Assembly (NCBI GenBank): GCA_002104905.1
Contig: MCFE01000067.1
Span: 124,001-188,000 of the forward strand
Length of the DNA stretch: 64,000 nucleotides
Origin: Basidiobolus meristosporus CBS 931.73
Taxonomy: Eukaryota > Basidiobolomycota > Basidiobolomycetes > Basidiobolales > Basidiobolaceae
Direction: 5' to 3'
The notes under the pieces were generated by a model that searched no databases, was not told where the DNA came from, and worked only from the letters and a program-made list of their open reading frames with translations. A program made the translations under genes and the position numbers. This document shows positions 3,394 to 64,000 of this stretch, piece after piece. Each line of letters begins with the position of its first letter. Within the stretch, counting starts at the first letter, position 1.

Positions 3394-3725
3394 TGTTGTA
3401 AGAGTCTTGGAGATATTGGAAGTGATTGGGAGAACAAGTAGATTATGTGGTTTTCACTTAATGATTTACTGAATGTAAAAGTAGTATTTATACTTTTACA
3501 TGGTCTTGGCATTACAAACACGTAGAATAGATTAAAGAAGGTCCCAACAGCATGTGTACAAAGTTTGGGGCTGTTTGGACAACTTATCTAATTTTCATGT
3601 TCTGGGTAAATATTCTAAGTAAATCCCGACAAGGAATTTGGTCAGTATTCTCTAGGATTTGAAGGTGATGATCTAAGTGACTAAGTTAGGTGAATTTTTA
3701 GGTGGAAATACGAATTTTTACAACA
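3394..3725 (-). repeat. Complete copia-type LTR (5' LTR of the inverted gag copy)
   Basis: About 332 bp with TGTTGTAA at one end and TTACAACA at the other, a perfect terminal inverted repeat. It lies immediately upstream of the minus-strand gag start. No matching 5-bp duplication is present, as expected for one LTR of a truncated element. I used it as the reference for the other LTR pieces in this window. Confidence 0.8.
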
Positions 3726-4456
3726 CTAAGTGACTAAGTTAGGTGAATATTTAGGTGGAAATACAAATTTTTACAACAAAAACCACATAATCTACTTGTC
3801 CTCCCAATCACTTCCAATATCTCCAAGACTCTTACAACAGTATAAATGCTAATTTTACATTCAATAAGGCATTGAGTAGATTTACATTATCCACTTGTTC
3901 TCCCAGTCATTTCCAGTATCTCCAAAACTCTTACTACAAGAAGTACCCAGACCATCACCTTAAGTCAGTCTAGGTATACTCAAGTTATACTTAGGAAGTA
4001 CTGGATGAAAGATTGTAAGCAGCTACCCTAATGAAGACAAACTTTCATCAAGAATCAACCAAATCAAGAGAGCTTGTTACTCTCTAAAAGACCAGACTTT
4101 TCTAACAAATTTAGTGTTAGCAGTTTAATGAATTTCATGAATGTAACATGATCAGACTTCAATAGATTATTAAAGAAAATCCACATAATCTACTTGCTCT
4201 CCCAATCACTTCCAGTATCTTCAGAAGTCTTACAACAAAGCCAGTCATAAAAAATATACTTAAATAGGATCCTAAGAGCATATACATACTATGTGGGGGC
4301 TTTTAGACAGCCTAACAAATCTTTATACTCAGAGTACCTGACACTTTGCTGAAACTTGTCAAGTCAATTTCAACAAAGAATTTGGGCAAGGAATAGTGAA
4401 GTTTGTAAGCTAGGATTTCAATGACATGTTTAGGAGTAAATACCAGATTTACCACA
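3726..4456. repeat. Cluster of LTR fragments in both orientations
   Basis: Several short pieces of the same LTR are joined here. An LTR-terminal piece lies at 3724-3777. Pieces in the opposite orientation ending at CTTACAACA or CTTACTACA lie at about 3778-3840 and 3841-3938. An LTR end is at about 4168-4232, followed by a diverged LTR body at about 4243-4456 ending in TTTACCACA. None has coding sequence. The stretch 4457-4888 shows no gene and no clear repeat. Confidence 0.65.
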
Positions 4457-49041: not shown

Positions 49042-49094
49042 ATCTGATATTTCCTTGATACTCTCTCAGGTTTCTTGGGTAACCGGCCTTCATC

Positions 49095-50861
49095 ATGAAA
49101 TCCTTGCTTTCTTTGTTTGTGATTGCACTGGCAGCAACATCCATCGAGGGGGCTCCGAAGTACAGCTATGACCAATGTGGCTCTCGATACGGCACCTGTG
49201 CACCAGGCTTGTGCTGCAGTAAATGGGGCTCCTGCGGTTCCACCTCGGAATACTGCTCTACTGGTTGCCAAACTAAATTCGGCAGCTGTAGTGGTAGTGC
49301 TTCAAAACCAACCACCACAGTCCCAACTCCGCTGAGACAGCTCAATGAACAATGCGGTTCCGGGTTCGGTTCATGCGCATCAGGATTATGCTGCAGTGAA
49401 TGGGGCTGGTGCGGCTACTCCTCCGACCACTGCACTGGAGGCTGCCAAAAACAGTTTGGTACTTGCAGTGCCAGTAGCACAACGGCCGCTACTCTCCCCA
49501 CCACTACGAAGTCCCCCACCCCAACACCATTGAAGCAACTTAATGAGCAATGTGGAGCCAATTTAGGTACTTGTGCACCAGGCTTGTGTTGTAGTGAATG
49601 GGGTTGGTGCGGCTACTCCTCCGACCACTGCACTGGAGGCTGCCAAAAACAATTTGGCACTTGCAGTACTGGCAGCACAATGACCACCACTTCCACTTTC
49701 ATCACGAACTCCCTTTCTCCAACTCCATTGAGGCAGCTAAATGAACAGTGCGGCGCCAGTGATGGTACCTGCGCGCCAGGATTATGTTGCAGTGAATGGG
49801 GATGGTGTGGATACTCATCTGATCATTGTACTGGAGGCTGTCAGAAGCTTTTTGGTACTTGTAGTGAGGGAGCAACCACCATCATCTCCTCAACAACCTC
49901 TGATACAAGCTCTAGCACTATTCAACCCACTTCTACCGCCACCTCCACTACAGCCACCCCGACTCCGACTGGACTAAGATACCTCGATGAACAGTGTGGT
50001 TCCAAATACGGCTCCTGTGCACCTGGTTTGTGCTGTGGCCAAACTGGTTACTGTGGCTACACCTCAGGACACTGCTCTGCAGGCTGCCAAAAGGATTTTG
50101 GAATTTGCGACAATAAAATAGAGGCAGAGGTGATTACCGGATGTAAAGCACCCGGAACTTTCGCAGTTACCTACGATGATGGACCAAGTGTTCTGACTTC
50201 AGGGCTGTTGGATTATCTGGACGAAGTGAAAGTGAAGGCCACCTTCTTTGTTAATGGGAACAACAGAAAGAATGGTGACACTGGAAACCCAATGTTAACC
50301 ATCTACGAGCTCGCTGATGTTGTCCGACGCGCCTACAACTCCGGACATCAAATCTGTTCTCACACCTGGGCTCACACTGACATTATTACCGTGAACGAGG
50401 AAGAGGTCGTCTATGAAATGACCAGACTGAATCACGCCTTCAGTAAAATCCTCGGCAAGGTTCCCACTTGCATGAGACCCCCCTATGGCGATACCGATGG
50501 GCCATCACGCAAGATTCTTTACAAAATGGGCTACACTGTTGTCAGCTGGAATGTGGATCCAGTTGATTGGAATCCGGTGAATTCCATTGATGAGATGTAC
50601 CAAGAGTATATTGATCAGACTGGATCTACCAGCACTAAAGTTGGCAAATTCATCTCCCTGAACCATGATGTGTGGAATACTACTGCTGACTTCAGGCCCG
50701 AGAGCTATCCCAAGACCATTCCACTTGCTAAGCGATCTATCGATTATTTGTTGGAAAGAGGTTGGAAGGTAGTTAACCTTGCCGAGTGCTTGCAAAGCCC
50801 GCCGCTATACCGTGATCCCAACCCTTCGGATAGTAAATGCGGCACAAAAGCCTGTGTTTGA
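49095..50861 (+). CDS. Secreted chitin deacetylase with five CBM18 domains
   Basis: 588 aa, intronless. NodB-family enzymes remove acetyl groups from chitin to give chitosan, acting in or outside the wall. Residues 1-20 form a signal peptide (MKSLLSLFVIALAATSIEGA). Five hevein-like chitin-binding modules follow between about residues 28 and 336, each of the form QCGS--G-CA-GLCCS-WG-CG with 8 Cys. They are separated by Thr/Ser/Pro linkers. The NodB domain starts near residue 350: TYDDGP (about 358), SHTWAH (about 421), RPPYGD (about 461) and WNVDPVDW (about 484-491) give the metal-binding Asp-His-His and the later catalytic motifs. No GPI signal is visible at the C-terminus. Modules 2-4 are closest to each other, suggesting recent duplication. 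Confidence 0.93.
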   Translation: MKSLLSLFVIALAATSIEGAPKYSYDQCGSRYGTCAPGLCCSKWGSCGSTSEYCSTGCQTKFGSCSGSASKPTTTVPTPLRQLNEQCGSGFGSCASGLCCSEWGWCGYSSDHCTGGCQKQFGTCSASSTTAATLPTTTKSPTPTPLKQLNEQCGANLGTCAPGLCCSEWGWCGYSSDHCTGGCQKQFGTCSTGSTMTTTSTFITNSLSPTPLRQLNEQCGASDGTCAPGLCCSEWGWCGYSSDHCTGGCQKLFGTCSEGATTIISSTTSDTSSSTIQPTSTATSTTATPTPTGLRYLDEQCGSKYGSCAPGLCCGQTGYCGYTSGHCSAGCQKDFGICDNKIEAEVITGCKAPGTFAVTYDDGPSVLTSGLLDYLDEVKVKATFFVNGNNRKNGDTGNPMLTIYELADVVRRAYNSGHQICSHTWAHTDIITVNEEEVVYEMTRLNHAFSKILGKVPTCMRPPYGDTDGPSRKILYKMGYTVVSWNVDPVDWNPVNSIDEMYQEYIDQTGSTSTKVGKFISLNHDVWNTTADFRPESYPKTIPLAKRSIDYLLERGWKVVNLAECLQSPPLYRDPNPSDSKCGTKACV

Positions 50862-51655: not shown

Positions 51656-51762
51656 ACATTAAGTTGCTACAAGGTTAAGGGGCCATGTAGTAAGAAATAA
51701 CAATTATGGACAGTGGCATATTTGCCCAGGGGGAAGAAGACTTTTATAAAAAGGGTTAGGGG

Positions 51763-51918
51763 TGTAGTAAGAATTTGTAATTCCACCAAAATATTCACCT
51801 AACTTGGTCACTTAGATCATTACCTCCAAATCCTAGAGAATACTGACCAAAATCCTAGTTGCGATTTACTTAGAATATTTACCCAGAGCATGAAAATTAG
51901 ATAAGTTGCTCAAACTGC
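51763..51918 (+). repeat. Truncated copia-type LTR, cut at a TTAGGG tract
   Basis: It begins TGTAGTAAGAATTTG and matches the first half of the family LTR read in this orientation (compare the complement of 3565-3725). It stops at 51918 where TTAGGGTTAGGG begins. Just before it, at 51753-51761, is GGGTTAGGG. Confidence 0.7.
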
Positions 51919-51933
51919 TTAGGGTTAGGGGGG
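51919..51933 (+). repeat. Telomere-type tract 1 (TTAGGG x2 plus GGG)
   Basis: Two perfect TTAGGG units join the LTR fragment to the 3' end of a LINE copy. This is the first of six such junctions to the right, all with the G-rich strand on +. Confidence 0.9.
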
Positions 51934-52442
51934 AGACAGTCACCAACATGTGAAATCTTTATTTCAGTTGAAACAAAGAAGCCAGCACTACTGTTGTAGC
52001 TTTGATACAAGAGTGTGTAGCTGAGGGGAATTTGTAGGTAAGTTAATAAGAAGTGATGATAGCTCTTCAGTGCTCAAGACACTGTTCAGTGGGAAGGGGG
52101 GTAGCAAGAGAGGTAAGAATGACTTGTGAATAACATTAATGAGGGGAATGTGATAAGGATTGATATTCATCATAAAGGGAGTGTGCTGCTGCAGATATTG
52201 CTGCCAAAGGTCTGTCAAGTACTTCAGGTAGGCCAGCTTGGGTTTTTCTGACTACAGAATAAATTGAGCAAACTTCTTGACTTCAGGATCTCCAGGTATA
52301 GTTCTCCAGCAGGAGTCAGATGTAGTGTGGTGTGTTCTCTTCCATGCCTTAATCAGTGGGTTGTTGCAGTGGTGAAGTCTGAGATATAATCTGGTTCTAA
52401 GGTAGAGAAGTCTGATCTTATAGGGCATAAACCCAAAAGCAC
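51934..52442 (-). mobile_element. LINE family A, copy A1 (5'-truncated)
   Basis: The 3' terminal about 510 bp of a non-LTR element read on the minus strand: the C-terminal end of ORF2 (stop at 51988), an AATAAA signal and the TCACC-GGTGA hairpin. It is very similar to copies A2 and A4. An in-frame stop near 52250 and the 5' truncation make it dead. The truncated end abuts an LTR. Confidence 0.85.
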
Positions 52443-52889
52443 TGTTGTGCATCAACATTTAAAACTTAGCCAATTTTACTCCGTTTGAAAATCTAGTACC
52501 CTAACTGATTTTCCCTAACCCAAACATAACAAATCCAGTTACAGTTTATTTTATCCCACCTCAGAATCTATTTTTAGCTATCACACCTGATCTATTTTCA
52601 AATGGTCATTACGTTATCAACCTATCTGCCAAGCCTTCACAGGTGATTAGTCATCTGAGATCTATCCAACCACTGTGCAGTTGCCAAGACATCAGTTGAT
52701 TGATGATGTAATTTTCATTTATCTTATGCACCTATGAACACCCAAATTGATTTCAATCAATCCAGTCCCTTGGCACTTACTAATTCAACTTGATCAGAAA
52801 AGTATAAATAAAGTTTACTGAACCTTTTGGTTTAGTGTGTGTCTCAACAAAGTTAAGATTCTGTCTCAGCAAAAATAAGTAATCCAACA
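52443..52889 (+). repeat. Putative Ty3-type 5' LTR
   Basis: About 447 bp with TGTTG at the start and CAACA at the end, upstream of a Ty3-type gag. A TATA-like GTATAAATAAA lies at about 52802. Only one copy is present, so the limits are inferred. Confidence 0.5.
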
Positions 52890-54805
52890 ATTCAATTCTA
52901 GTTTCTATCCAAGCCTAGCATATCTAGCACTCCTAAAGAACACCAAGCCTAGCCTGCCTGGCAAACAAATATCATTGTCTTTATAGCCAACCCAGCTATA
53001 TCCAAGACCAATATCAGATCAGAATCTTTCTGCCAATATTTCTGCCACTCTCTGACAATTCTAAGATTCTGCACTTAATTGTCCCTTTGGTTCAGTTAAA
53101 CCATTCAAGAGTTTTATCACACTTTCTCTTGGATACAACATTTTTTTTGTTGAAATCCATTACATTCAGCCTGATTAGAAGATGTCCTCAGCAGCAAGCA
53201 ATCCAAACCTTTCCATGTTGGAAGAAGCCAGAAGAAATCAGGAAGAACTTACTGAACAGCTTGAAAACATCATGCTTGAAAGAAATACCATGATGCTTGA
53301 GCACTCAAAGCTTGCCAAAACAAGATCTGATATTCACCGTAGGATGAACTCCTTGAAGTTATATCCAGTTACCAAGATGAAATTGGAATAATTAAGGAAG
53401 CACTGGAGAATATTGCCATAGTAATTGACAGCATTGAAAATCTGCCAAGCCTTGCTCTGCGTCAGCCACCAAGAAGTCATGCCTGTGAATCCTCCAGATC
53501 TACATCTCCTTCTAGACCTGCCCCGGTGGTTGTCCCAAAATCCTTGCCTGTTTATGCTGAAGGCACCAATGCCATCAAGAATCCAACTGAGCTTCTTTGC
53601 AAGTTTAGTCATATCTTAGCTGCACACCAGCTAGACCCTGACACCAACTGGGCTAGACTTCTGCCTCTCTGTCTCACAATGCAAGATGCTGACTGGGTTG
53701 AAGTGAACATTCCTTCCAATAGTACGTGGAAAATTGCCCAAAACCTCTTTTGCAGCCATTTTGAAGATCCTCTCAAGAAAGCACATCTGAACTGCAACTT
53801 ATAGAAAACTAAAATGCAAAAAGGTGAATCTGTGCAACACTTCTGTGATAGATTCCAAAGACAAATGAGATTAGCTGGAGTTAGTGATGATAATCCATTG
53901 CTTACTGCTCATTTTCTTTCAAACTTTTTACACCAGCTACAGAGCAATATTGCTATTGTCAAAGCATGCAGCCCTGCATGTACCTATGACCAGATCTCAG
54001 AGATATGTACACTGGCAATCATCTTGACTGCAGCTGTTAGCCAGACTTCAGGCAACTCAACCCAAGATCCCACAACAGCCGGAAAAGAGACCAGTCATGT
54101 GACCAAGAAGCAGTCAACCGCTACCAAGCACTGTGAGCTTCATGGAAAATGCTATCATTCTACCAGTGAATGCAAAGGCATCACCAAGCAGTCAAACAAG
54201 TCAGGAAACACCTCAGAAAAGCAGCAAAACACCAAAACTGATAATCCATATGCTGATGACAAGTGCTTTAAATGTGGAAATATGGGACATAGATCACCTG
54301 CCTGTCCTGAGAAGAACTCCACACCATCAGCCAAAATACCCAGATCCTTGATGATCATTCAGCCAATGATACAATGGGGTATGAAGAAGTATATGAAGAA
54401 CTTACAGTTCAAGATTATCACAACCTCTTTGAGTTTCCGGCTAAAATTGCAACTGTTCAACAAAAGAAGCAACCAACCACACAGCTCAAAGCCATAGAAG
54501 TGCCACTCACCCTCAATGGCCAATCATATGTAGCACTACTGGATACTGGATCATCCAACTCTATTGTATCACCCAATGTAGTCAGAGAACTCAATTTGGA
54601 GATAGAAAAACAACAAGGAAAAATCGTTCTTGCAGCTAAGGATCACTCAGCCCCAAGAATTGGCATTACCAACCCAATCAACATACACTGTGGCTCAGTA
54701 ACCATAATCCATCAGATGGAAGTTATTGACATACCAGATGGACCTCAGGTAGTCATTGGTCTGGAAACCTTCACCAAACTTGGCTTTCACATAGGTGGAC
54801 TACCC
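52890..54805 (+). mobile_element. Ty3/gypsy-type gag-protease remnant, truncated at a TTAGGG tract
   Basis: Gag starts near 53182 (MSSAASNPNLSMLEEARRNQ) with a coiled coil. It continues after a frameshift near 53370 with a retrotrans-gag segment (about 53570-53990), interrupted by one TAG near 53802. A CCHC knuckle follows (CFKCGNMGHRSPAC, about 54264). The protease (VALLDTGSSNSIVS, near 54530) is in another frame that overlaps the gag frame at 54374-54497. The protease frame ends only because the TAG of a telomere-type tract follows directly at 54806. RT, RNase H and integrase are absent. Confidence 0.85.
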
Positions 54806-54819
54806 TAGGGTTAGGGGGA
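54806..54819 (+). repeat. Telomere-type tract 2 (TAGGGTTAGGG)
   Basis: Joins the broken Ty3-type protease to the 3' end of LINE copy A2. Confidence 0.85.
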
Positions 54820-56858
54820 GACAGTCTCCAACAGGTGAAATCTTTATATCAGTTGAAACAAAGAAGCCAGCGCTACTGTTGTAGCTTTGATACAAGAGTG
54901 TGTAGCTGAGGGGAATTTGTAGGTAAGTTTACAGGAAGTGATGATAGTTCTTCAGTGCTCAAGACACTGTTCAGTGGGAAGGGGGGTAGCAAGAGAGGTA
55001 AGAATGACTTGTGAACAGCATTAATGAGGGGAATGTGATAAGGATTGATATTCATCATAAAGGGAGTGTGCTGCTTCAGATATTGCTGCCAAAGGTCTGT
55101 TAAGTACTTCAGGTAGGCCAGCTTGGGTTTTTCTGACTGCACAATAAATTCAGCAAACTTCTTGACTTCAGGATCTCCAAGTATAGTTCTCCAGCAGGAG
55201 CCAGGTGTTGTGTGGTGTGTTCTCTTCCAGGCCTTAATCAGTGGGTTGTTGCAGTGGTGAAGTCTGAGGTATAATCTGGTTCTAAGGTAGAGAAGTCTGA
55301 TCTTATAGGGCATAAACCCAAAAGCACCAAGAATAGCATGTCTGTAGGGGCATTCAGGCAAATGAGGCACCAAGGAGGTAATGCACCATACTGCAAACTT
55401 GTCAAGCTTAGTGCAGTCTCTAGAAGTAAGAGAGAGAAGTGGTAAGCCAAATTCCAGGACAGGGAAGACAAACTGCTCGAGTAGAAGAAGGCAGCTGGGA
55501 GCTGAAGTTGTAGGAGGAGTAACAGCCAGTAGCTTGTGGAGTGCCTGTCTTGCCAGGATAATTCTCTTCTTCAGGTGTGCTCCAGAGTCTAGTCCAGTAG
55601 GAAGGAAAGGAAAGCCAAGATATGTAGCAGAAACCTGAGCAGGTAGAGTGGAGTTCTCCAAGTTGATGGGAGAGCCCAAAGGTACTGTCTTTGCAATGGA
55701 AAGCTGGAGATTATTCTTCTGCAGATACTGGTGGATGGTCTGGGAGTCTTGTTGCACATTGGAGGAGGATATTCTGATGTCATCAGCAAAGAGAGTAACC
55801 AGGCAGTCAGCTGAGAGTCTTGGGAAATCCCTCAGGAAGATGGCAAACAGTATAGGACCAAGCACAGAGCCTTGAACCACTCCATTAGGAACTGAGAACA
55901 CAGCTGATTGCTCACTCGGGTGCAGAATTCTTGCTTGTGGATCCAGAAACAGAGACCTGACAAGGAGGGTGAGAGAGGTCCTGGAGAAGCATTGCAACTT
56001 GGACCAAAGCAGATTTCTGTCAACTGAATCAAAGGCCTTAGTAATATCAAACAGAACAGAGGGATACTTGCACTGGAGAGAGTGATCTTGGCTAAGTATG
56101 ACTGCATATTCCAAGGAGAGGCCAGAAACAAAGCCAAACTGTGCAGGGTGAAACTTGAGGGAGTCAGAGTAGAGCTCCTGAGCAAGCAGAAGCTCAAACA
56201 CCTTTCTGCAGGTGGGCAGCAGAGATATTTGCCTATAGGAGCTAGGATCCAGGTGCTTTCCTTTACCCTTGTACAGTGGCAGAACATTTGCAAAGGACCA
56301 TTCCTCAGGAGTAGAAAGCTGGGCTGAGCATTGCTGAAACAGTGGAAGCAGAAGTGCAGACATGGCCTTGGTACTAGTCTTCAGAAGCTCACAGGACATT
56401 GTGTCCACACCTGGAGCAGTAGAGTTGGGAAGCCTCTTGAGCACATTATGGATTCTCCCTTGATCAAGTGCAAGTGGGATGGGCAGAGTCTTGAAGTCAG
56501 GATGAAAGCCAGGAGTTGAGTACTGCTTTGTAGAGAAGAAGATGTTAGCCAGCTGTTCTGTTGAAGGTAACTTCCTGGAAGAGGGCCTCATTGCCCTGTA
56601 GAGTCTTGATACTGTTCTTGTTATAGAGTTGGAAGATTGCAGAGGCAAAGAACTCATAATATGATCCCAGAGCTGAGTATGTAGAGTGTGGTGAATTGCC
56701 TTGGAGTGGTGTATGGCTGTCAGGAGGAGTTTCTCTGCTTTTGGGTTAGGGAAACTCAGGTAGCATTGTTGCAGGGCTGAAACAATGGATTCCCATTTTC
56801 TTGAGGTAACAGCAGTAGTCTTGCATGGCAGTGAGAGGGAGGCAGAGACCAGAATCAA
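54820..56858 (-). mobile_element. LINE family A, copy A2 (ORF2 with RT, 5'-truncated)
   Basis: A non-LTR element on the minus strand. The 3' end (left) has a degenerate hairpin (GTCTCCAACAGGTGAAA read on +) and an AATAAA signal. The open frame 54873-56858 encodes RT and the C-terminal part. The 5' end stops inside ORF2 at 56858, where tract 3 begins. It is nearly identical by eye to A4 over the shared 1.1 kb. Confidence 0.9.
54873..56858 (-). CDS. LINE-A ORF2, reverse transcriptase part
   Basis: 661 codons open from the truncation to a stop at 54873. RT motifs in order: NVLPLYKGKGKHLDPSSYR, LLPTCRKVFELLLAQEL, FDITKAFDSVD (motif A), GVVQGSVLGPILFAIF (motif B) and TLFADDIRI (motif C, with Phe instead of Tyr). 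A C-terminal region of about 230 aa follows without a clear RNase H or CCHC motif. The endonuclease part is missing through truncation. The frame has no stops, so the copy is young. Confidence 0.88.
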   Translation of the reverse strand: MILVSASLSLPCKTTAVTSRKWESIVSALQQCYLSFPNPKAEKLLLTAIHHSKAIHHTLHTQLWDHIMSSLPLQSSNSITRTVSRLYRAMRPSSRKLPSTEQLANIFFSTKQYSTPGFHPDFKTLPIPLALDQGRIHNVLKRLPNSTAPGVDTMSCELLKTSTKAMSALLLPLFQQCSAQLSTPEEWSFANVLPLYKGKGKHLDPSSYRQISLLPTCRKVFELLLAQELYSDSLKFHPAQFGFVSGLSLEYAVILSQDHSLQCKYPSVLFDITKAFDSVDRNLLWSKLQCFSRTSLTLLVRSLFLDPQARILHPSEQSAVFSVPNGVVQGSVLGPILFAIFLRDFPRLSADCLVTLFADDIRISSSNVQQDSQTIHQYLQKNNLQLSIAKTVPLGSPINLENSTLPAQVSATYLGFPFLPTGLDSGAHLKKRIILARQALHKLLAVTPPTTSAPSCLLLLEQFVFPVLEFGLPLLSLTSRDCTKLDKFAVWCITSLVPHLPECPYRHAILGAFGFMPYKIRLLYLRTRLYLRLHHCNNPLIKAWKRTHHTTPGSCWRTILGDPEVKKFAEFIVQSEKPKLAYLKYLTDLWQQYLKQHTPFMMNINPYHIPLINAVHKSFLPLLLPPFPLNSVLSTEELSSLPVNLPTNSPQLHTLVSKLQQ

Positions 56859-56879
56859 TTAGGGTTAGGGTTAGGGGGG
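56859..56879 (+). repeat. Telomere-type tract 3 (TTAGGG x3)
   Basis: Three perfect TTAGGG units plus extra G, between the 5' truncation of A2 and the 3' end of the ORF1-only element. It is the longest tract in the window. Confidence 0.92.
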
Positions 56880-57908
56880 ATGATAATCACCACAGGGTGA
56901 AATCTTTATTTAAATCATAAATAAAGAAGCCAAATTTGAATATGAATAGTTGAGATGCAGAAAGCCTACAAGATTAACTTGGACTTTGCTGTATCCCAAA
57001 TATCCTCAATATTGAAGTCTAGAGGAGAATGTAGCAAAACTGCTTGTTCACTGTAGTATTTCTTGAGGAAGTTTGTGACTTGAAGGGAAGGAGAGTTTTT
57101 CAACAAGCTGGTAAACCTTTTGAGGAGTTCTTTTTCCAGAGAGACTGGTACAAAGAGTGGAATGTCCAAATGATGTCTGAATATATGCTCTGAGAGCTCC
57201 CAATCCAGCATATTTTTGACTTCTTCTGTAAAATCTTCAACAATATCTTTGTCAAGAATAACTTCCAAGAGATCCCTGGCAATGTACTGAATGTTAATAA
57301 TCTTGGGCATATGAATACCTAGGTCCTTGAGGTAGTTTCTTTGTTCTGAAATTGGGAGATAGCCAGCATTTCTGAAATAGCAAACAGCCCAATTGGCAGT
57401 GGGAGGAGTATCAGGGCTGACAGGGAATCTTCTTCTAGCTTTAGGGTGCACTGGCTTAGGTGACTGTCTTGTTGAAAGGGCAGCTGGCTTTGGATGAGCT
57501 TGAAGTGCTTGGGAGTATGTCTGAGTATAAATGGCAGGAGTTGCTGGTTGCTGACAGTGGTCAGATTGACTGGAAGAAGAGCTGGTTGAGGGGTTGCAAG
57601 GTAAGGAAGAAGCTGAAAGAGAAGTAGAGAGTGCTGGGTGAAGTTCAGAGAGAGTTTTGAAGAGAACCTGAATCTGAGATTTCAACATTGAGTTTTCAGC
57701 TTCAAGAAGCAAAACTCTTTGTTCAAGATAAGAAGTCTGTAAAGAGTGAAAGTTGGGTAAAGACATGGAAGAATTAGATAATAAGAAGAAAGGAGTAGTT
57801 GGGGTGGGAAGGTGGGAAAATAGTTAAGAAGAAAAGAGAGGAAAGATCTGAAATTGAAAATCTCAGAATTTATAGATGGATGGACAAGGGTAGAGGATAG
57901 ATTAATCC
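56880..57908 (-). mobile_element. ORF1-only LINE-like element (A3)
   Basis: A short element of about 1.03 kb on the minus strand with one intact ORF1 and no RT. Its 3' UTR follows ORF1 directly and carries AATAAA, the hairpin TCACC-ACAG-GGTGA (+ strand reading) and a C-rich tail into CCCTAA, like the RT-bearing elements. The 5' UTR is pyrimidine-rich. Telomere-type DNA lies on both sides (56859-56879 and 57909-57918), so it looks like a complete unit and not a random truncation. Confidence 0.75.
56966..57766 (-). CDS. ORF1 protein of element A3
   Basis: 266 aa from ATG to stop without breaks. The N-terminus is a coiled coil (YLEQRVLLLEAENSMLKSQI, about residues 13-32), followed by a Ser/Pro/Gln-rich linker. 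The conserved C-terminal half (about residues 120-265; NWAVCYFRNAGYLPISEQRN) is homologous to ORF1 of LINE-B: the same order of a W--YF start, an I-NI block, an L-VILDK block and an end with an acidic/W motif. Likely an RNA-binding, particle-forming protein. The fold was not assigned. Confidence 0.75.
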   Translation of the reverse strand: MSLPNFHSLQTSYLEQRVLLLEAENSMLKSQIQVLFKTLSELHPALSTSLSASSLPCNPSTSSSSSQSDHCQQPATPAIYTQTYSQALQAHPKPAALSTRQSPKPVHPKARRRFPVSPDTPPTANWAVCYFRNAGYLPISEQRNYLKDLGIHMPKIINIQYIARDLLEVILDKDIVEDFTEEVKNMLDWELSEHIFRHHLDIPLFVPVSLEKELLKRFTSLLKNSPSLQVTNFLKKYYSEQAVLLHSPLDFNIEDIWDTAKSKLIL

Positions 57909-57941
57909 AGGGTTAGGGAAAAATAGTTAAGAAGAAAAGAG
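57909..57941 (+). repeat. Telomere-type tract 4 followed by a 25-bp copied tag
   Basis: AGGGTTAGGG (57909-57918) is followed by AAATAGTTAAGAAGAAAAGA, which repeats part of the A3 5' UTR at about 57817-57841. After this comes the G-run and 3' end of copy A4. Confidence 0.8.
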
Positions 57942-59111
57942 AGGGGGGAGACAGTCACCAACAGGTGAAATCTTTATTTCAGTTGAAACAAAGAAGCCAG
58001 CGCTACTGTTGTAGCTTTGATACAAGAGTGTGTAGCTGAGGGGAATTTGTAGGTAAGCTAATAAGAAGTGATGATAGTTCTTCAGTGCTCAAGACACTGT
58101 TCAGTGGGAAGGGGGGTAGCAAGAGAGGTAAGAATGACTTGTGAACAACATTAATGAGGGGAATGTGATAAGGATTGATATTCATCATAAAGGGAGTGTG
58201 CTGCTGCAGATATTGCTGCCAAAGGTCTGTCAAGTACTTCAGGTAGGCCAGCTTGGGTTTTTCTGACTGCAGAATAAATTCTGCAAACTTCTTGACTTCA
58301 GGATCTCCAAGTATAGTTCTCCAGCAGGAGCCAGGTTTTGTGTGGTGTGTTCTCTTCCAGGCCTTAATCAGTGGGTTGTTGCAGTGGTGAAGTCTGAGAT
58401 ATAATCTGGTTCTAAGGTAGAGAAGTCTGATCTTATAGGGCATAAACCCAAAAGCACCAAGAATAGCATGTCTGTAGGGGCATTCAGGCAAATGAGGCAC
58501 CAAGGAGGTAATGCACCATACTGCAAACTTGTCAAGCTTAGTGCAGTCTCTAGAAGTAAGAGAGAGAAGTGGTAAGCCAAATTCCAGGACAGGGAAGACA
58601 AACTGCTCGAGTAGAAGAAGGCAGCTGGGAGCTGAAGTTGTAGGAGGAGTAACAGCCAGTAGCTTGTGGAGTGCCTGTCTTGCCAGGATAATTCTCTTCT
58701 TCAGGTGTGCTCCAGAGTCTAGTCCAGTAGGAAGGAAAGGAAAGCCAAGATATGTAGCAGAAACCTGAGCAGGTAGAGTGGAGTTCTCTAAGGTGATGGG
58801 AGAGCCCAAAGGTACTGTCTTTGCAATGGAAAGCTGGAGATTATTCTTCTGCAGATACTGGTGGATGGTCTGGGAGTCTTGTTGCACATTGGAGGAGGAT
58901 ATTCTGATGTCATCAGCAAAGAGAGTAGCCAGGCAGTCAGCTGAGAGTCTTGGGAAATCATTCAGGAAGATGGCAAACAGTATAGGACCAAGCACAGAGC
59001 CTTGAACCACTCCATTAGGAACTGAGAACACTGGTGATTGCTCACTTGGGTGCAGAATTCTTGCTTGTGGATCCAGAAACAGGGACCTGACAAGGAGGGT
59101 GAGAGAGGTAC
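57942..59111 (-). mobile_element. LINE family A, copy A4 (5'-truncated)
   Basis: 3' hairpin TCACC-AACA-GGTGA, AATAAA signal, then an ORF2 frame open from the stop at 58003 to the truncation at about 59111. The RT part keeps GVVQGSVLGPILFAIF and TLFADDIRI. It is nearly identical to A2, so both inserted recently or one copied the other. Confidence 0.88.
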
Positions 59112-59118
59112 TTAGGGG
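59112..59118 (+). repeat. Telomere-type tract 5 (TTAGGGG)
   Basis: One unit between the truncated 5' end of A4 and the 3' end of LINE-B copy B1. Confidence 0.75.
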
Positions 59119-59199
59119 AGGGAAAGTCACCAAGTTGGTGAAATCTTTATTTGAGTTAGGAACTAATCTAGGTACAAATAAAGAAGCCAATTAAGAGGT

Positions 59200-62049
59200 C
59201 TAGAACCTCTCTAATAAGTAATCTAATTTATGTTTTGTTTCATCTCTTATGTTTGTTTCAATAAAGTAAAGTTCATCAGGGGTAAATATAAAATTCAGGG
59301 GTTTTGGGGGAAGTACAAATTGTAGATGTTTCTGATCAATATAATCCAAGACTGGAACCCAGCCTGGGATTAGGTGTAGTAGGAAAGGTGTGTGGACTTG
59401 TAAGTAGCTCTGCCACATAGATCTTAGATGGTCCTGAGCCAGTAGTCTTGGTTTCTCAGCTTTTTGAAGTTTTGAAGCAAGCTCTGTTACTACAGCAGAG
59501 CCAACCAGGGTGTGCCAGCAAGAAGATTTCAGGGAGGAGTTAGATTGAAGCCATTGTTTGATGGAGGGGTTATGTGATTTCTGAAGTTTGACTAGGAAGG
59601 AAGCACGGAGATAGACCATTCGGATTTGGTATGGGTAGAAGCCAAAGGCTCCATTAGTTGCATGGATATAGGGAGATACTGGAAGATAAGGTACCAAGGA
59701 TCTGATACACTGATGGAGAAATTTATCCAGGCGGTGAAGTTCTCTGGAGGTTAGGGGTATAATGTGGAGACCAAACTCAAGTACCGGCAGTACATACTGC
59801 TTCAGAAGTATAGGGATCTTTTGAATTGGAGTGTCTGGAGTGACTACTACCAGAAGCTTTTTGAGAGCCTGTTGAGCAAGACGGATCCTATTATTCAGGT
59901 GGAGCTTTGAGTCAATCCCATGTTGACAAAATGGCAGACCTAGATATATTGCAGTTTGTTGTGGCAGAATGCTAGTGTTCTGTATAGTTGTAGTGCATCC
60001 AATTGGGACTGTCTTGGAAATTGAGAGTGAGAGGTTGTTGGCAGCCAAGTACTTCTCAATGATGGCAGTATCTGCTATGGGATTAGGAGTAGCAATCTTG
60101 ATATCATCCGCATAGAGAGTTAGTAGTGGATAGGGAGAGTCTGGTGAGGGGCCTTTTGGAAATAAAGGAAAGTCATGTAGGAATATCACAAATAGTAAGG
60201 GACCTAGTACAGATCCTTGGACCACTCCATTTGGAACCTCATAAGTCTCTGATGTACAACTTGGATGCAAAATTTTGGCTGAGTTCTCACAAAATAGAGA
60301 ACGTACAAGAAGGGTCATTGGTAGTGTGGTAACTGCTAATAGCTTTCTCCAAAGCAGAGCTCTGTCCACAGAGTCAAAGGCTTTAGTAATGTCAAACAGA
60401 ATGGTTGGCAATGAGAATTGAAGTGAATGATCATGGCTTAGCACTACAGCCATATCCAAGGAGAGTTTGGGCAAGAAGCCAAACTGAGAAGGATGGAATG
60501 GATATAGTTGAGATTGCAAGGATCTTGCAATTATAAGCTCAAAGATTTTCCGGCAGGTTGGCAGGAGTGAAACTGGCCGGTAAGAACCTGGGAGTGAGTG
60601 TTTCCCCTTCCCTTTGTATAAGGGCATTACATTTGCCTGTGACCAGGCCTTTGGGGTAGTCAATTGTTGGGCACAGATAGAGTAGAATGGGAGAAGTAAG
60701 TGACTCATTTTGGAGTAGCACACCCGGAGTAGATCGTAGGTAATCAAGTCATGTCCAGGTGCAGTATTTGCAGGAAGCTTCTTTAAAATTTTCTCCAGAA
60801 GCTTTGCTGAAACCAAAATTGGAGATGTTGGACTGCTAGATATGTTACCAGTATGGTAGAAAGGAGGAGTGGGATGCACGGTTGAATCAAAGAATATAGG
60901 GGCCAGTTTGTCTGGTGATGGTATACTCCTTGCTTGGGGTCTCATGGCTTTATATACTCTTGATATGGACCTTGTGGTGGCATTCATATTTACTAAGGGC
61001 AAGGTATCCATGATATGAGCCCATAATCTAGTGTGCTCAGTGATCTGTAGTGACTTGGAGTAGGAGATTGCGCTTTCCAGGAGGTTCTGTGTTTTTGGGT
61101 TAGGGAAACATAGGTAGCTGGAATTTAAGGCAGAAATGATGGATTTCCATTTAAGTTGGTTTGCAGATGGCTTTTGGTAAGACTTGGTGGGCAGGGCCAG
61201 ACAGCCAGTGATTATGATGAAATGCTGGTAAAATAGCCATAATGCATTTACATCATCACAAATCCATGCAGGTAAGCTGGGAAATGCATATTCTGTAAGC
61301 AAGGATAGGTAGTTGGCAAAGTCCTGTGTCTGTGATACTGAAGCTTTGGCTGGCAGGATTGTAAATGGCTGAAGAAGGGTGCCAATTGGTAGGGTTTTTC
61401 TGGCAGAAATGATAATATGTATTGGCTTGTGATCAGATTTCTCTAGTGAACCACAGCTGATATCCTCTGGAATGCTTGTAACCTGGTGGATGTATTGTAA
61501 GGCAGCTGGAGTAGCTGTTACCCAGTCAACACAACGTTGAGCTTGCTGAGTGTTTACAGTGACCAGATGGTTTTGTCGGAGGAACTTTGTAAAGTGCTCC
61601 TCTCTAGTTCTAAGTCTGGATGAAATAGTGGTGATATTTTCAGGGTGGGGAATATTTATATCTCCCACTACCATACAAGGGATTGATGAGCTGTTAATGA
61701 ATTCTGATGTGGCCAAGAAAATTGCCAGTGTTATGGAGTTAGACAGAGATGGAGGGAGATAGATAATAATGGCTACTATAGTTGGAAGTGTTAGAGCATA
61801 GCAGTAATACTCATAGATGATGGATACATTTGCTGAGGGTGCAAGCTTAGAAGATGAAAGAGCAACAAGTGCCATTGAGTGAGCTGGAAGTCTTGGGTGA
61901 GCAGATGAATATGCATTCAGTCTAGAGGGAAGTTTTGGCAACTTAACATCAATTAGTAGGAGCAAGGAATATTCCTTTTTCAGTAAGTTTTCTAATTCAG
62001 CTACAGTTGGAGTGATGGAGTTGCAATTGAGTAAGAGTATGTTTTGTAG
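59200..62049 (-). CDS. LINE-B ORF2: AP-like endonuclease plus reverse transcriptase
   Basis: About 950 codons with no stop. The frame begins right after the UGA that ends ORF1b and lacks an ATG at its conserved start. The endonuclease part opens ILLLNCNSITPTVAELENLL and contains VVGDINIPHPE and SDHKPIHII; the usual catalytic Glu block reads LIDVKLPK, with Asp instead of Glu. RT motifs are NVMPLYKGKGKHSLPGSYRP, FDITKAFDSVDRALLW, NGVVQGSVLGPLLFVIF and LTLYADDIKI. The C-terminal region is homologous to that of family A. The intact length suggests recent activity. Confidence 0.9.
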   Translation of the reverse strand, partial: LQNILLLNCNSITPTVAELENLLKKEYSLLLLIDVKLPKLPSRLNAYSSAHPRLPAHSMALVALSSSKLAPSANVSIIYEYYCYALTLPTIVAIIIYLPPSLSNSITLAIFLATSEFINSSSIPCMVVGDINIPHPENITTISSRLRTREEHFTKFLRQNHLVTVNTQQAQRCVDWVTATPAALQYIHQVTSIPEDISCGSLEKSDHKPIHIIISARKTLPIGTLLQPFTILPAKASVSQTQDFANYLSLLTEYAFPSLPAWICDDVNALWLFYQHFIIITGCLALPTKSYQKPSANQLKWKSIISALNSSYLCFPNPKTQNLLESAISYSKSLQITEHTRLWAHIMDTLPLVNMNATTRSISRVYKAMRPQARSIPSPDKLAPIFFDSTVHPTPPFYHTGNISSSPTSPILVSAKLLEKILKKLPANTAPGHDLITYDLLRVCYSKMSHLLLPFYSICAQQLTTPKAWSQANVMPLYKGKGKHSLPGSYRPVSLLPTCRKIFELIIARSLQSQLYPFHPSQFGFLPKLSLDMAVVLSHDHSLQFSLPTILFDITKAFDSVDRALLWRKLLAVTTLPMTLLVRSLFCENSAKILHPSCTSETYEVPNGVVQGSVLGPLLFVIFLHDFPLFPKGPSPDSPYPLLTLYADDIKIATPNPIADTAIIEKYLAANNLSLSISKTVPIGCTTTIQNTSILPQQTAIYLGLPFCQHGIDSKLHLNNRIRLAQQALKKLLVVVTPDTPIQKIPILLKQYVLPVLEFGLHIIPLTSRELHRLDKFLHQCIRSLVPYLPVSPYIHATNGAFGFYPYQIRMVYLRASFLVKLQKSHNPSIKQWLQSNSSLKSSCWHTLVGSAVVTELASKLQKAEKPRLLAQDHLRSMWQSYLQVHTPFLLHLIPGWVPVLDYIDQKHLQFVLPPKPLNFIFTPDELYFIETNIRDETKHKLDYLLERF

Positions 62050-62943
62050 TCAGGCAGACTCTGAGGTTGCCTGTTCCTGCTGAAACTCTTGCACTGCCCT
62101 TTGTAAATTTCCAGAATTATTCCACAACTCTTCAAATGGAGCTTGTGTAATGTCTTTCAGGATTCTAATTGCTTCCTCTTTCAAGAAGTAGGCCACATCA
62201 TAGGTTGGAGCCTGTTTCTTAATGGCAGCAAAGAAAGCCATAATTGCCATGTGAGCTGGGGGCTTGTTGAATATTCCTGGCTCAGTGTCCATTGACTCTG
62301 GTGGAATGATTGTGAATTTGGTAGACACCCAGTTTAGATTTTTTGCCAGATACTTAGTCAATGCAGTGGAGAAGTTTCTGTCCACAATCATTTCTAGGAT
62401 CTTTCCTCTTCTCCAAGCTAGGTTAACAATTTTTGAAGTGTCAATATTTAGAGAGCGGAATGTATGTCTGATGTTTGATATAGTAGTCCATGGAACATTG
62501 GCAAAGTATAGCAAGGACCAATTCTGGAGCTGAGGTAAGTTTGCTGGAGGCTTATAGGTAGACTTCCTGGCAGGTTGTGTGGTAGGCTTTAGTGTTTCCA
62601 AGGTAGCAAGTTGTGGTTGAGACTTTTTAGAATTACGTATGACTTTGGAAAGAATTCTGCCAGCAACTGTGTCAGGAATGTTAGTACTTGTTGATGGTGC
62701 AGGGCCTGGCTCCTGGTACTGCTTTTGTAGAATACTTGAGTATGTCTCTTTTTGTTTTCCTTTATCCAAGGTGCTATGCCTTGGAATGGGATTTTGGGGA
62801 ATAGAGACTTCAGGTATCAACTCTGGGGTCTGGTGATTGTCCAACACTGTTGCTTGAGCTTCCAGCTTTTCCTCTAAGATTTGAACTCTCTGCTTAAGCT
62901 CATCATTTGACGCTATAAGTGTGCATTGTTTGGAGCCAGGTCA
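62050..62943 (-). CDS. LINE-B ORF1b
   Basis: The frame opens after a stop near 62944. An ATG at 62847 gives 265 aa, but upstream codons of the same frame encode a coiled coil (NDELKQRVQILEEKLEAQ) that repeats one in ORF1a. The conserved ORF1 half (NWSLLYFANVPWTTISNIRH, then IVNLAWRRGKILEMIVDRNF) is homologous to the A3 protein. It ends in UGA, followed in frame by CUA and then ORF2. Its role is likely RNA binding. Confidence 0.75.
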
Positions 62944-63677
62944 GGTGTTGAGTTATGAAGGCAGGTTGAGCAGCGTTCTAACTCCTTTGTTTGGTCATCC
63001 AACTTTTCTTCTAAGGTTTGAACCCTCAATTTGAGTGCACCATTTGAGGTTAGAAGCTCCAAGTTATCAGCCTGCAACTTCTTTAGATCCCTAAATATCT
63101 CAAATATCTGTGCCTGCAAGTCTTTAGCAGTGATATTTCTGATGGGTACTATTTCCTCTAGGAGTTCTTCTTGAGCCAGGTGAGCATTGGGACTTGAGCA
63201 CTCTACTGAAGGAGTTGCTGGAATTTCCTCAATGTCTGACAAAACTCCTTCACTTGCAGCATCAGTTGTATGATTATCCTGAGTAGCAGCAACAACCTCA
63301 AGTTCACAAGGACCAGTTGAAGTAAAACATTTCTTGGGTGGGACTATCTCAAGAGGCTTGGGTGGGACTTTTGCTTTGAATGGTGAGGTACTAGGATCAA
63401 GAATTGGGACTGGGACAGAAGCTATGGTGTCTATTTCAGCAGCAGTTGCTGTAGAGCTACTGGGGCTCTGACTGGCTGGTTTTTTGGTCTTTGCCTTCAC
63501 TCCTGCTACCAACTGGTCAAGACCACAAATCTTTGTACAGGCCTTGCATTGGACCTGCGTAACCTTATTCTTGCCAGCACAGCCATTGAGCTTCCATTTG
63601 CCTCTGACACCACAGGCAGTGCAGTCAAGTTTTGAATGCCATCTTCTGAAGAGAGTCAGATCCTCTTTTTCCTCACT
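62913..63677 (-). CDS. LINE-B ORF1a: zinc-ribbon-like N-terminus and coiled coil
   Basis: The frame is open from the element's 5' edge to a stop at 62913 (first ATG none; GTG near 63512). Near the start there is a Cys-rich block: CTACG, then C about 12 residues on, then QCKACTKIC, a possible zinc ribbon. A Ser/Pro/Thr-rich acidic linker and a C-terminal coiled coil follow (SNGALKLRVQTLEEKLDD). ORF1b starts in another frame with a similar coiled coil. Either a tandem duplication broke one ORF1 in two or a frameshift joins them. Confidence 0.6.
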   Translation of the reverse strand, partial: SEEKEDLTLFRRWHSKLDCTACGVRGKWKLNGCAGKNKVTQVQCKACTKICGLDQLVAGVKAKTKKPASQSPSSSTATAAEIDTIASVPVPILDPSTSPFKAKVPPKPLEIVPPKKCFTSTGPCELEVVAATQDNHTTDAASEGVLSDIEEIPATPSVECSSPNAHLAQEELLEEIVPIRNITAKDLQAQIFEIFRDLKKLQADNLELLTSNGALKLRVQTLEEKLDDQTKELERCSTCLHNSTPDLAPNNAHL

Positions 63678-63687
63678 GGGTTAGGGG
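63678..63687 (+). repeat. Telomere-type tract 6 (GGGTTAGGGG)
   Basis: Joins the 5' end of B1 to the 3' end of copy B2. Confidence 0.75.
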
Positions 63688-64000
63688 AGGGAAAGTCACC
63701 AAGTTGGTGAAATCTTTATTTGAGTTAAGAACTAATCTAAGTACAAGTAAAGAAGCCAATTCAGAGGTCTAGAACCTCTCTAATAAGTAATCTAATTTAT
63801 GTTTTGTTTCATCTCTAATGTTTGTTTCAATAAAGTAAAGCTCATCAGGGGTAAATATAAAATTCAGGGGTTTTGGGGGGAGTACAAATTGTAGATGTTT
63901 CTGATCAATATAATCCAAGACTGGAACCCAGCCTGGGATTAGGTGCAGTAGGAAAGGTGTATGGACTTGTAAGTAGCTCTGCCACATAGATCTTAGATGG
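63688..64000 (-). mobile_element. LINE family B, copy B2 (runs off the window)
   Basis: The first 313 bp are nearly identical by eye to 59119-59430: hairpin, AATAAA, ORF2 stop at 63769 and the ORF2 C-terminus. It is the next unit of the head-to-tail array. Confidence 0.9.

Follow-up and report, generated by a model that had tools for sequence, protein, structure and literature searches.

A community of telomere-targeted non-LTR retroelements most probably inhabits a telomerase-positive Basidiobolus fungus, where a cycle of end-priming and re-capping would build its copies into arrays. We put the probability of this reading at about 80%.

The array in the window

The window, a 64,000-nucleotide stretch of the 89-Mb Basidiobolus assembly, contains six LINE-type 3' ends (at approximately 51931, 54817, 56877, 57945, 59118 and 63687), all of which face left. 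The initial annotation had described six ends in one orientation, each preceded by TTAGGG. The orientation held for 6/6, and direct reading of the letters placed telomere units on the plus strand immediately before five of them. The exception was the join at 57944/57945, where TTAGGG is absent and the closest copy (57913) lies about 26 bp upstream, in the 5' region of the neighboring ORF1-only element. In the window, TTAGGGTTAG occurs three times compared to 0.11 expected by chance. The parts of the array are:

51919..51930, plus strand: TTAGGGTTAGGG tract before A1 (direct reading)
51931..52442, minus strand: family A copy A1, lacking the 5' part (96% identity to A2 over 514 bp)
52443..54804 (left limit approximate), plus strand: Gypsy-type LTR fragment with gag, CCHC-like motif and aspartic protease (PF13650/PF13975)
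54805..54816, plus strand: CTAGGGTTAGGG capping the Gypsy break (direct reading and comparison with uninterrupted copies)
54817..56857, minus strand: family A copy A2, 5'-truncated (661-aa RT frame at 54873-56858, PF00078, E 1.5e-23)
56859..56876, plus strand: three TTAGGG units (direct reading)
56877..57944, minus strand: family C ORF1-only element without RT (285-aa frame at 56966-57823)
57910..57918, plus strand: GGGTTAGGG motif inside the C 5' region, not a junction (recurs in another C copy, L014)
57945..59111, minus strand: family A copy A3, 5'-truncated and fused to C without TTAGGG (98% identity to A2 over 1169 bp)
59112..59117, plus strand: lone TTAGGG at the A3/B1 boundary (direct reading)
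59118..63677, minus strand: family B copy B1 with 3' hairpin, ORF2 (59200-62049, 949 aa, EN+RT) and ORF1
63678..63686, plus strand: GGGTTAGGG tract at the B1/B2 boundary (direct reading)
63687..64000, minus strand: 3'-terminal part of another B copy, B2 (97% identity to B1 over 320 bp), continuing to the contig end

The Gypsy fragment breaks off after the protease at 54804 while three other copies run on beyond that point; compared to these uninterrupted copies, the mid-element break carries CTAGGGTTAGGG followed by a family A copy. Comparison with an uninterrupted homologue also placed the C-to-A3 join between GAGAGG and GGGG. In B1, an in-frame TGA-CTA is found at 62047-62052 and ORF1 is split into two overlapping frames by a frameshift in this copy. 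The contig ends 334 bp past the window, within a B element, and the telomere is not reached.

Junctions across the genome

A genome-wide search for the 3' ends had been proposed from the window alone. Run on the draft assembly, a pattern for the 3'-end hairpin gave 1,532 forward and 144 reverse matches (1,676 in total), and the same pattern written backwards gave 0 + 0. TTAGGG was present 5-14 bp upstream in 1,279 + 101 matches, a count in which TTAGGGTTAGGG may count double (three such cases among the matches listed). We then merged the first 100 contig-ordered matches on a 140-base key, leaving 98 distinct junctions, and a TTAGGG-type unit stood directly before the G-run in 88 of these. By comparison, of the 824 GGG sites that the window contains, 18 (2.2%) follow TTA. 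The ten junctions without a clean unit include two that were unreadable to the parser and were scored as lacking it; part of the ten are degenerate telomere-like sequence and about five show nothing telomeric. TTAGGG is therefore not a strict requirement.

The interstitial tracts were tiny, with a median of 8 bp and a length of 9 bp or less in 64/88, and longer tracts of 11 to ~48 bp containing TAGGG, TTTAGGG or CTAGGG variants also occur. The left flanks of the 88 tracts comprised 80 distinct sequences, and copies of one family differed in both tract length and G-run. Together these observations largely exclude the outcome that could have overturned the initial annotation, namely that TTAGGG is a fixed part of elements with variable targets. 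That TTAGGG is fixed element sequence was rejected at the 3' junction, but it holds for the motifs internal to the 5' regions of families A, C and D. A tandem-repeat origin of the array was likewise rejected, as no tandem array was reported there and 80 of the left flanks were distinct. Among the fetched loci, an uninterrupted homologue of the left neighbor was found for 106 of 143 junctions. Truncation at the 5' end was frequent, at many different points and with short overlaps.

Position at chromosome ends

In the sample of the first 100 contig-ordered matches, all 36 copies on contigs longer than 100 kb lay no more than 22.2 kb from the contig end faced by their 5' side. Similarly, on contigs whose length is known, 47 matches to the endonuclease domain were located 0.3-19.1 kb from the right end. 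The sampled copies share a single orientation, with the element 5' end pointing outward. These positions, together with the TTAGGG-type units at 88/98 junctions, bear out the head-to-tail, telomere-targeted array.

Ten of the 15 right contig ends that we fetched terminate in 156-243 bp of TTAGGG, in eight cases directly on an element; in one full-length A copy, eight 5' monomers of ~99 bp are followed directly by the telomere. The other five right ends, that of the window's contig among them, lack a terminal telomere, as does the left end of contig C27 (locus L072, reverse orientation). Two genome matches to the TERT RNA-binding domain (TERT_RBD) exceeded the cut-off, one of them with an in-frame TAG.

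Element families

Two families (A and B) and an ORF1-only element had been thought to share this habit. The shared habit was borne out, but the number rises from three to at least five families: A and B, putatively autonomous; C and E, ORF1-only; and D, SINE-like. The RNA 3' end is common to all of them and consists of a stem (CUUUAUUU...AAAUAAAG), a hairpin (UUUCACC-loop-GGUGA) and a short C-rich tail. This structure was kept across 10 representatives. Covariation in the hairpin was considered and rejected, as just one of 15 pairs carried a double change; because the stem is imposed by the search pattern itself, the hairpin is read as conservation.

In families A and B, ORF1 is followed by an in-frame UGA and then by ORF2, which encodes an APE-like endonuclease and an RT; their ORF1 carries an N-terminal zinc-ribbon-like motif and a coiled coil. 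At the ORF1/ORF2 joint, two of 18 short stretches (L185 and L186) did not fit the search pattern. Among 150 scored of 278 candidates, hand counts gave 59 matches to the A-type 922-aa frame and 14 to the B-type 949-aa frame without a stop. From this coding content, both families are predicted to be self-copying. One stretch taken as a B 5' end (L194) proved to be family A.

Families C and E encode only the ORF1 protein and lack RT. The homology of the ORF1-only element to ORF1 was supported at E 4e-18, and 29 frames of 285-298 aa were counted by hand, four with an internal stop. Between subfamilies C and C' dN/dS was 0.17-0.26; it was 0.43 in one E-like frame pair and 1.43 in one pair of C copies separated by very few changes. 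An intact ORF under constraint and the lack of RT mark the ORF1-only family as a HeT-A-like Gag-only element.

Family D is ~0.5 kb long, non-coding and SINE-like, and a B box (GGTTCRANYCC) was present in 26 of 27 5' ends, which come from loci that overlap. ARAGORN found no tRNA in six loci and Rfam none in two, so that D as a recognizable tRNA gene was not supported.

Reverse transcriptase and endonuclease

The RT is of LINE type, with a match to PF00078 and LINE-1 ORF2p as its best solved match. In a tree built without named reference clades, from which 12 of 92 proteins were dropped as they had no usable RT stretch, A, B and P0001-P0005 formed one isolated group (100/100, branch 1.65).

An APE-type endonuclease is predicted N-terminal to the RT. 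Matches to PF14529/PF03372 ranged from E 3e-6 to 6e-3, with only P0001 reaching the curated cut-off, and the full B ORF2 gave no endonuclease match at E 0.01. The motifs LNCNS, GDxN and SDH are present wherever the sequence covers them, so the endonuclease may be in use. The Glu motif reads LIDV in all four covering members (A, B, P0002 and P0003), placing Asp at what we take to be the catalytic Glu site of APE-like endonucleases. We also searched the A and B frames together with P0001-P0005 for a REL endonuclease, using the zinc motif C-x1-3-C-x6-8-H-x3-4-C followed by RHD/N given in PMC12857005, and found neither the zinc motif nor RH[DN].

Proposed mechanism and alternatives

We infer that the C-rich tail primes reverse transcription at TTAGGG ends that are short or newly healed. 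The element RT would recognize the shared 3' hairpin, and the C tail of the RNA would pair with GGG at a 3' end made of TTAGGG and prime cDNA synthesis at that site, slippage giving the variable G-run. The new end, often 5'-truncated, would be capped again by telomerase, and repetition of the cycle would yield a head-to-tail array. As usually only about one unit is left between elements, the targets would be telomeres that are very short, worn down or newly healed.

Short interstitial tracts could alternatively arise if the endonuclease cut at the inner edge of the telomere, if they were copied from the RNA tail, or if longer fragile tracts were lost, the last being reported for MoTeR (PMC7367193).

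One possible but doubtful alternative is a TRAS/SART-like process, where an APE-like endonuclease nicks duplex TTAGGG at or near the inner telomere boundary and the remaining telomere stays distal to the new copy. The retained domain with LNCNS, GDxN and SDH is consistent with this, as is a new MoTeR1 insertion reported with a one-unit residue (PMC7367193). On the other hand, residual tracts have a median of 8 bp compared to 156-243 bp in the ten terminal tracts, so that the enzyme would need to cut only within the first one or two units. The Asp in 4/4 members and the junctions without any TTAGGG also argue against nicking.

It is rather unlikely that the RNA instead carries a telomerase-like, telomere-complementary tail (~CCCUAACCC, gained by reading through into its own flank), with the 6-9-bp tract copied from RNA and any bare DNA end as target. 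The tract length (6-9 bp in 62/88), the varied truncation points with short overlaps, and the capping of a non-telomeric end at the Gypsy break all fit, but tracts of 11 to ~48 bp with TAGGG, TTTAGGG and CTAGGG variants resemble telomerase products.

Growth of the arrays chiefly by subtelomere recombination or break-induced replication, instead of retrotransposition, is improbable. D copies do stand in tandem on contig C96 at a spacing of 526-534 bp, and MoTeR arrays can expand in this way (PMC7367193). However, G-run length varies along these successive D copies, the 88 junctions have 80 distinct left flanks, and the 5' truncation points are many and different. An assembly artefact, in which contigs were broken by the repeats, would fit the five right ends without a telomere but is hardly credible given the constant orientation relative to the end, the telomere closing 10/15 right ends, and the Gypsy repeat of the same assembly, which occurs on both strands (31 plus and 9 minus among 40 scored rows, hand count) with three hand-picked copies no closer than 48 kb to either end of their contigs.

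Comparison with known systems

Our literature search found no prior description of such a system. In Basidiobolus, an APE-like system whose partners are SINE-like or carry ORF1 without RT would mean that fly-like telomere retroelements arose independently in a lineage retaining telomerase. With more than 1,600 recorded 3' ends, the genome lends itself to the question of whether these elements are parasites of chromosome ends or helpers in maintaining them.

Like MoTeR1/MoTeR2 of Magnaporthe and FoTeR of Fusarium, these are fungal elements that lie at telomeres, point outward with their 5' ends, adjoin TTAGGG on the 3' side and have short interstitial tracts; head-to-tail arrays and a non-autonomous partner with a common 3' end are further features shared with MoTeR. 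MoTeR and FoTeR (CRE clade) encode RT and a C-terminal REL endonuclease (PMC12857005 and PMC7367193). They are the fungal telomere LINEs that our literature search turned up and, with Cnl1 grouped beside them, form one clade with this endonuclease (PMC12857005). In contrast, the Basidiobolus elements have an APE-like endonuclease, two ORFs with an in-frame UGA and no REL motif, a family-specific yet variable G-run, three non-autonomous families and >1,600 3' ends.

The TRAS/SART elements of insects (R1 clade) combine an APE-type endonuclease and RT with a telomere-repeat junction and fixed orientation, and the Basidiobolus elements resemble them in all of these. SART1 depends on a long poly(A) tail and on a minimum of three TTAGG units (PMC7265360). 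Unlike SART1, the sampled Basidiobolus junctions have no 3' poly(A) tail but a G-run (a C tail in the RNA) after the hairpin, and the median interstitial tract is 8 bp.

Athena/Coprina, endonuclease-deficient Penelope-like elements, attach at telomere repeats, some of them in fungi; the Basidiobolus RT differs in being LINE-type RVT_1 accompanied by an endonuclease domain. In UnaL2/UnaSINE-type pairs a SINE and a LINE have a common 3' stem-loop. D likewise carries the LINE stem-loop, but the sampled Basidiobolus copies are at chromosome ends.

In Drosophila, where telomerase is absent, HeT-A/TART/TAHRE are added head-to-tail at the ends with 5' truncation between additions, and RT-bearing and Gag-only elements share the labor. 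The Basidiobolus elements show the same end arrangement, truncation and division, in a genome that differs from that of Drosophila by its TERT domain and its TTAGGG termini. Tentatively, and on balance doubtfully, a multi-family layer that works alongside telomerase to cap and extend broken or eroded ends may have evolved in this early-diverging fungus independently of flies, comprising an altered (Glu-to-Asp) endonuclease, dependence on a free 3' end, a telomere-complementary RNA tail as a telomerase-like template, HeT-A-like ORF1-only partners and a telomere-restricted SINE. Overall, the system is probably convergent with HeT-A/TART and TRAS/SART, its fly-like state having evolved independently.

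Element 3′ ends in the window and the assembly

The initial annotation described six element 3′ ends in a single orientation, each preceded by telomere units. All six are confirmed in the window, with one shared orientation, and five of them abut such units. The exception lies at 57944/57945, where an element of the ORF1-only family C is joined directly to a copy of the LINE family A (copy A3); the TTAGGG nearby is part of the preceding element and not of the junction. The 3′ ends have in common a hairpin, TCACC-loop-GTGAAATCTTTATT on the strand read here, which gave 1,676 matches across the assembly (89.0 Mb, 1,311 contigs) as compared to 0 for the backwards control.

Further features lie elsewhere in the window. 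At 51753-51790, GGGTTAGGGG is followed by TGTAGTAAGAATTTG, a further subtelomeric repeat; a related 53-bp repeat is found at 3673-3778, and related sequence also lies left of an A junction in locus L003. A frame at 49083-50861, beside the subtelomere, encodes a polysaccharide deacetylase that has five Chitin_bind_1 (chitin-recognition) stretches. An aspartyl-tRNA synthetase is 94% identical to that of Basidiobolus ranarum, which identifies the host as a Basidiobolus; the following matches reach 73% (58% of the query covered) and 69% (98% covered).

Position and orientation at contig ends

Because hairpin matches are listed in contig order, the first 100 were not selected by position. Thirty-six lie on 10 contigs longer than 100 kb. 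Measured to the contig end faced by its 5′ side, none of the 36 is farther away than 22.2 kb; the median distance is 5.3 kb, and 31 are no more than 10 kb away. Under uniform placement, 12.6% would be expected within 25 kb. The subtelomeric location suggested earlier holds for every informative copy of this sample. The remaining 64 come from 16 contigs whose length (17.9-20.0 kb) makes them uninformative about position.

A genome search with the endonuclease domain (150 scored of 278 candidates) placed 47 matches 346-19,064 bases from the right contig end, all on the minus strand; these are matches placed on contigs of known length, a subset of such matches. Three plus-strand matches were all inside the first 2.9 kb of their own contigs. 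In contrast, a Gypsy element occurred on both strands (31 plus and 9 minus by hand count, 40 scored of 134 candidates), and three hand-picked copies were separated from both contig ends by 48 kb or more. The 39-to-1 strand bias in a separate genome search (40 scored of 405 candidates) arises in part because nearly all telomere tracts of the assembly sit at right ends.

Telomere-tract matches were forward in 6,700 of 6,769 cases (backwards control 0 and 12), a quirk of assembly orientation. The difference between two tract counts gives, very roughly, 250-350 telomeric ends, which suggests more than 100 small chromosomes or separated haplotypes.

Junctions with the telomere repeat

The first 100 contig-ordered hits yielded 98 distinct junctions, and in 88 a TTAGGG-type unit directly preceded the element G-run, bearing out the proposed telomeric target. 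These 88 had 80 distinct 30-bp left flanks; the single large cluster (8 junctions) is the 5′ end of full-length copies of the SINE-like element D. Their interstitial tracts were short (median 8 bp, maximum 34; 64 of 88 no longer than 9 bp, 81 no longer than 12 bp). Among all loci, the longest interstitial tract observed was ~48 bp, in L168. The other ten, two of which could not be parsed, included several degenerate units (GGGTAAGGG, GGGTTTGGG, TTAAGGG) and about five with nothing telomeric. A second, biased set, drawn from the surroundings of near-identical A copies and of their neighbors, had the unit in 42 of 45. The G-run after TTA ranged from 3 to 10, with family-specific modes (A, 6; B and the ORF1-only family E, 4; D, 5-6).

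Among the fetched loci, an uninterrupted homologue of the left neighbor was found for 106 of 143 junctions. Full-length D ends excepted, this neighbor mostly ends at a varied internal point, often with an apparent 1-4-base overlap with the telomere phase. The Gypsy copy in the window breaks off past its protease, and CTAGGGTTAGGG together with A caps the break; three other copies run on past this point. Ten of 15 fetched right contig ends terminate in 156-243 bp of TTAGGG and five do not; the ten tracts sit on truncated A (four), full-length A (one), D (two), E (one) and other or degenerate sequence (two).

In locus L046 (about 2060-2107), and possibly in L020 (about 340-395), two TTAGGG tracts enclose a very short 3′ fragment of A-like sequence (GGGGGGAGACAGTCAC). 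The L046 fragment could be the trace of reverse transcription that aborted almost at once, or of a trimmed end, before a further insertion.

Organization of families A and B

Family A: ~99-bp 5′ monomers (eight in locus L167), ORF1, in-frame TGA, ORF2 (922 aa)
Family B: plan as in A; ORF2 949 aa
ORF1-ORF2 joint, GCC-TGA-CTA: window 62047-62052; loci L160 and L163-L184; alike in A and B

ORF1 of A is a 523-aa stop-to-stop frame in L168; that of B runs continuously with the TGA in L165 and is frameshifted in the window copy. Both carry a zinc-ribbon-like motif (CxxC...CxC or CxxC), with Pfam matches below cut-off only. The joint reads GCC TGA CTA in 29 of 29 matched rows (23 A, 6 B), representing 27 distinct copies as L005/L182 and L163/window are duplicated; L185 and L186 gave no match and are outside this count. 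Stops in the context UGA-CUA are known to be leaky. Since, in addition, no ATG was seen close to the ORF2 start in A or B, programmed UGA readthrough from ORF1 into ORF2 is predicted.

The endonuclease encoded by ORF2 is APE-like (matches to PF14529 or PF03372 at E 3e-6 to 6e-3), and the related database protein P0001 alone reaches the curated cut-off; full B ORF2 had no Pfam endonuclease match at E 0.01. At the position of the catalytic-Glu motif of other LINEs, A, B, P0002 and P0003 have LIDV. The reverse transcriptase (RT) is of LINE type (PF00078; best solved match LINE-1 ORF2p). A motif scan of A and B found no REL or CCHC motif, and RNase H was absent from their Pfam matches.

ORF1-only and SINE-like partners

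The sole protein encoded by C (285 aa) and by E (271 aa) is related to the C-terminal half of ORF1 (C versus A, 30% over 155 aa, E 4e-18). For this protein, 541 candidates yielded 137 listed matches, 136 of them scored. In L009, E is linked to its own 3′ end through 40 identical bases of the 3′ region. Between C subfamilies dN/dS was 0.17-0.26; three pairs inside one subfamily gave 0.23, 0.40 and 1.43, the last on very few changes. D is ~518 bp long (L009), with a B box at 26 of 27 5′ ends and no tRNA call.

The 5′ regions of three families (A, C and D) contain telobox-like motifs, TTAGGGTTAGGG or GGGTTAGGG, and E has GGGTTAGG; they are possibly promoter sites for a putative telobox-binding factor.

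Telobox-like motifs: L167 1633-1644; window 57910-57918; L009 1455-1463 and 936-943

Proposed mechanism of insertion

The telomere-targeted LINE system is real, large and well supported. Its location, orientation, telomeric 3′ junctions, 5′ truncation and telomere directly on 5′ ends are established at the level of sequence, and an end-priming mechanism is likely. The shared 3′ hairpin would be recognised, the C tail would prime on GGG with slippage, and telomerase would re-cap the new end, insertion taking place when the telomere is nearly gone. The genome has two matches to the TERT domain, one carrying an in-frame TAG.

The short tracts may come from a short or fresh telomere, from endonuclease cutting at the inner edge of the telomere, or from an RNA tail. 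Alternatively, tracts of three or more units may have been lost by breakage, as PMC7367193 describes for MoTeR.

Relationship to known systems

In the RT tree (80 of 92 rows usable), A, B and five database proteins formed one isolated group (100/100, branch 1.65). Within this group the partner of A is P0005 and that of B is P0001, which makes it probable that the two families are older than the split from the organism that supplied these sequences.

Further known systems for comparison include HeT-A/TART, the TRAS/SART clade and Athena/Coprina. A literature search whose coverage excluded most subscription journals and bioRxiv turned up no account of telomeric retroelements in either Basidiobolus or Zoopagomycota, and words beginning with transpos- or telomer- are absent from the main text of PMC7466969, which reports the B. 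meristosporus genome. SART1 depends on a long poly(A) tail as well as on three TTAGG units (PMC7265360). MoTeR and FoTeR belong to the CRE clade and carry an REL endonuclease (PMC12857005, PMC7367193).
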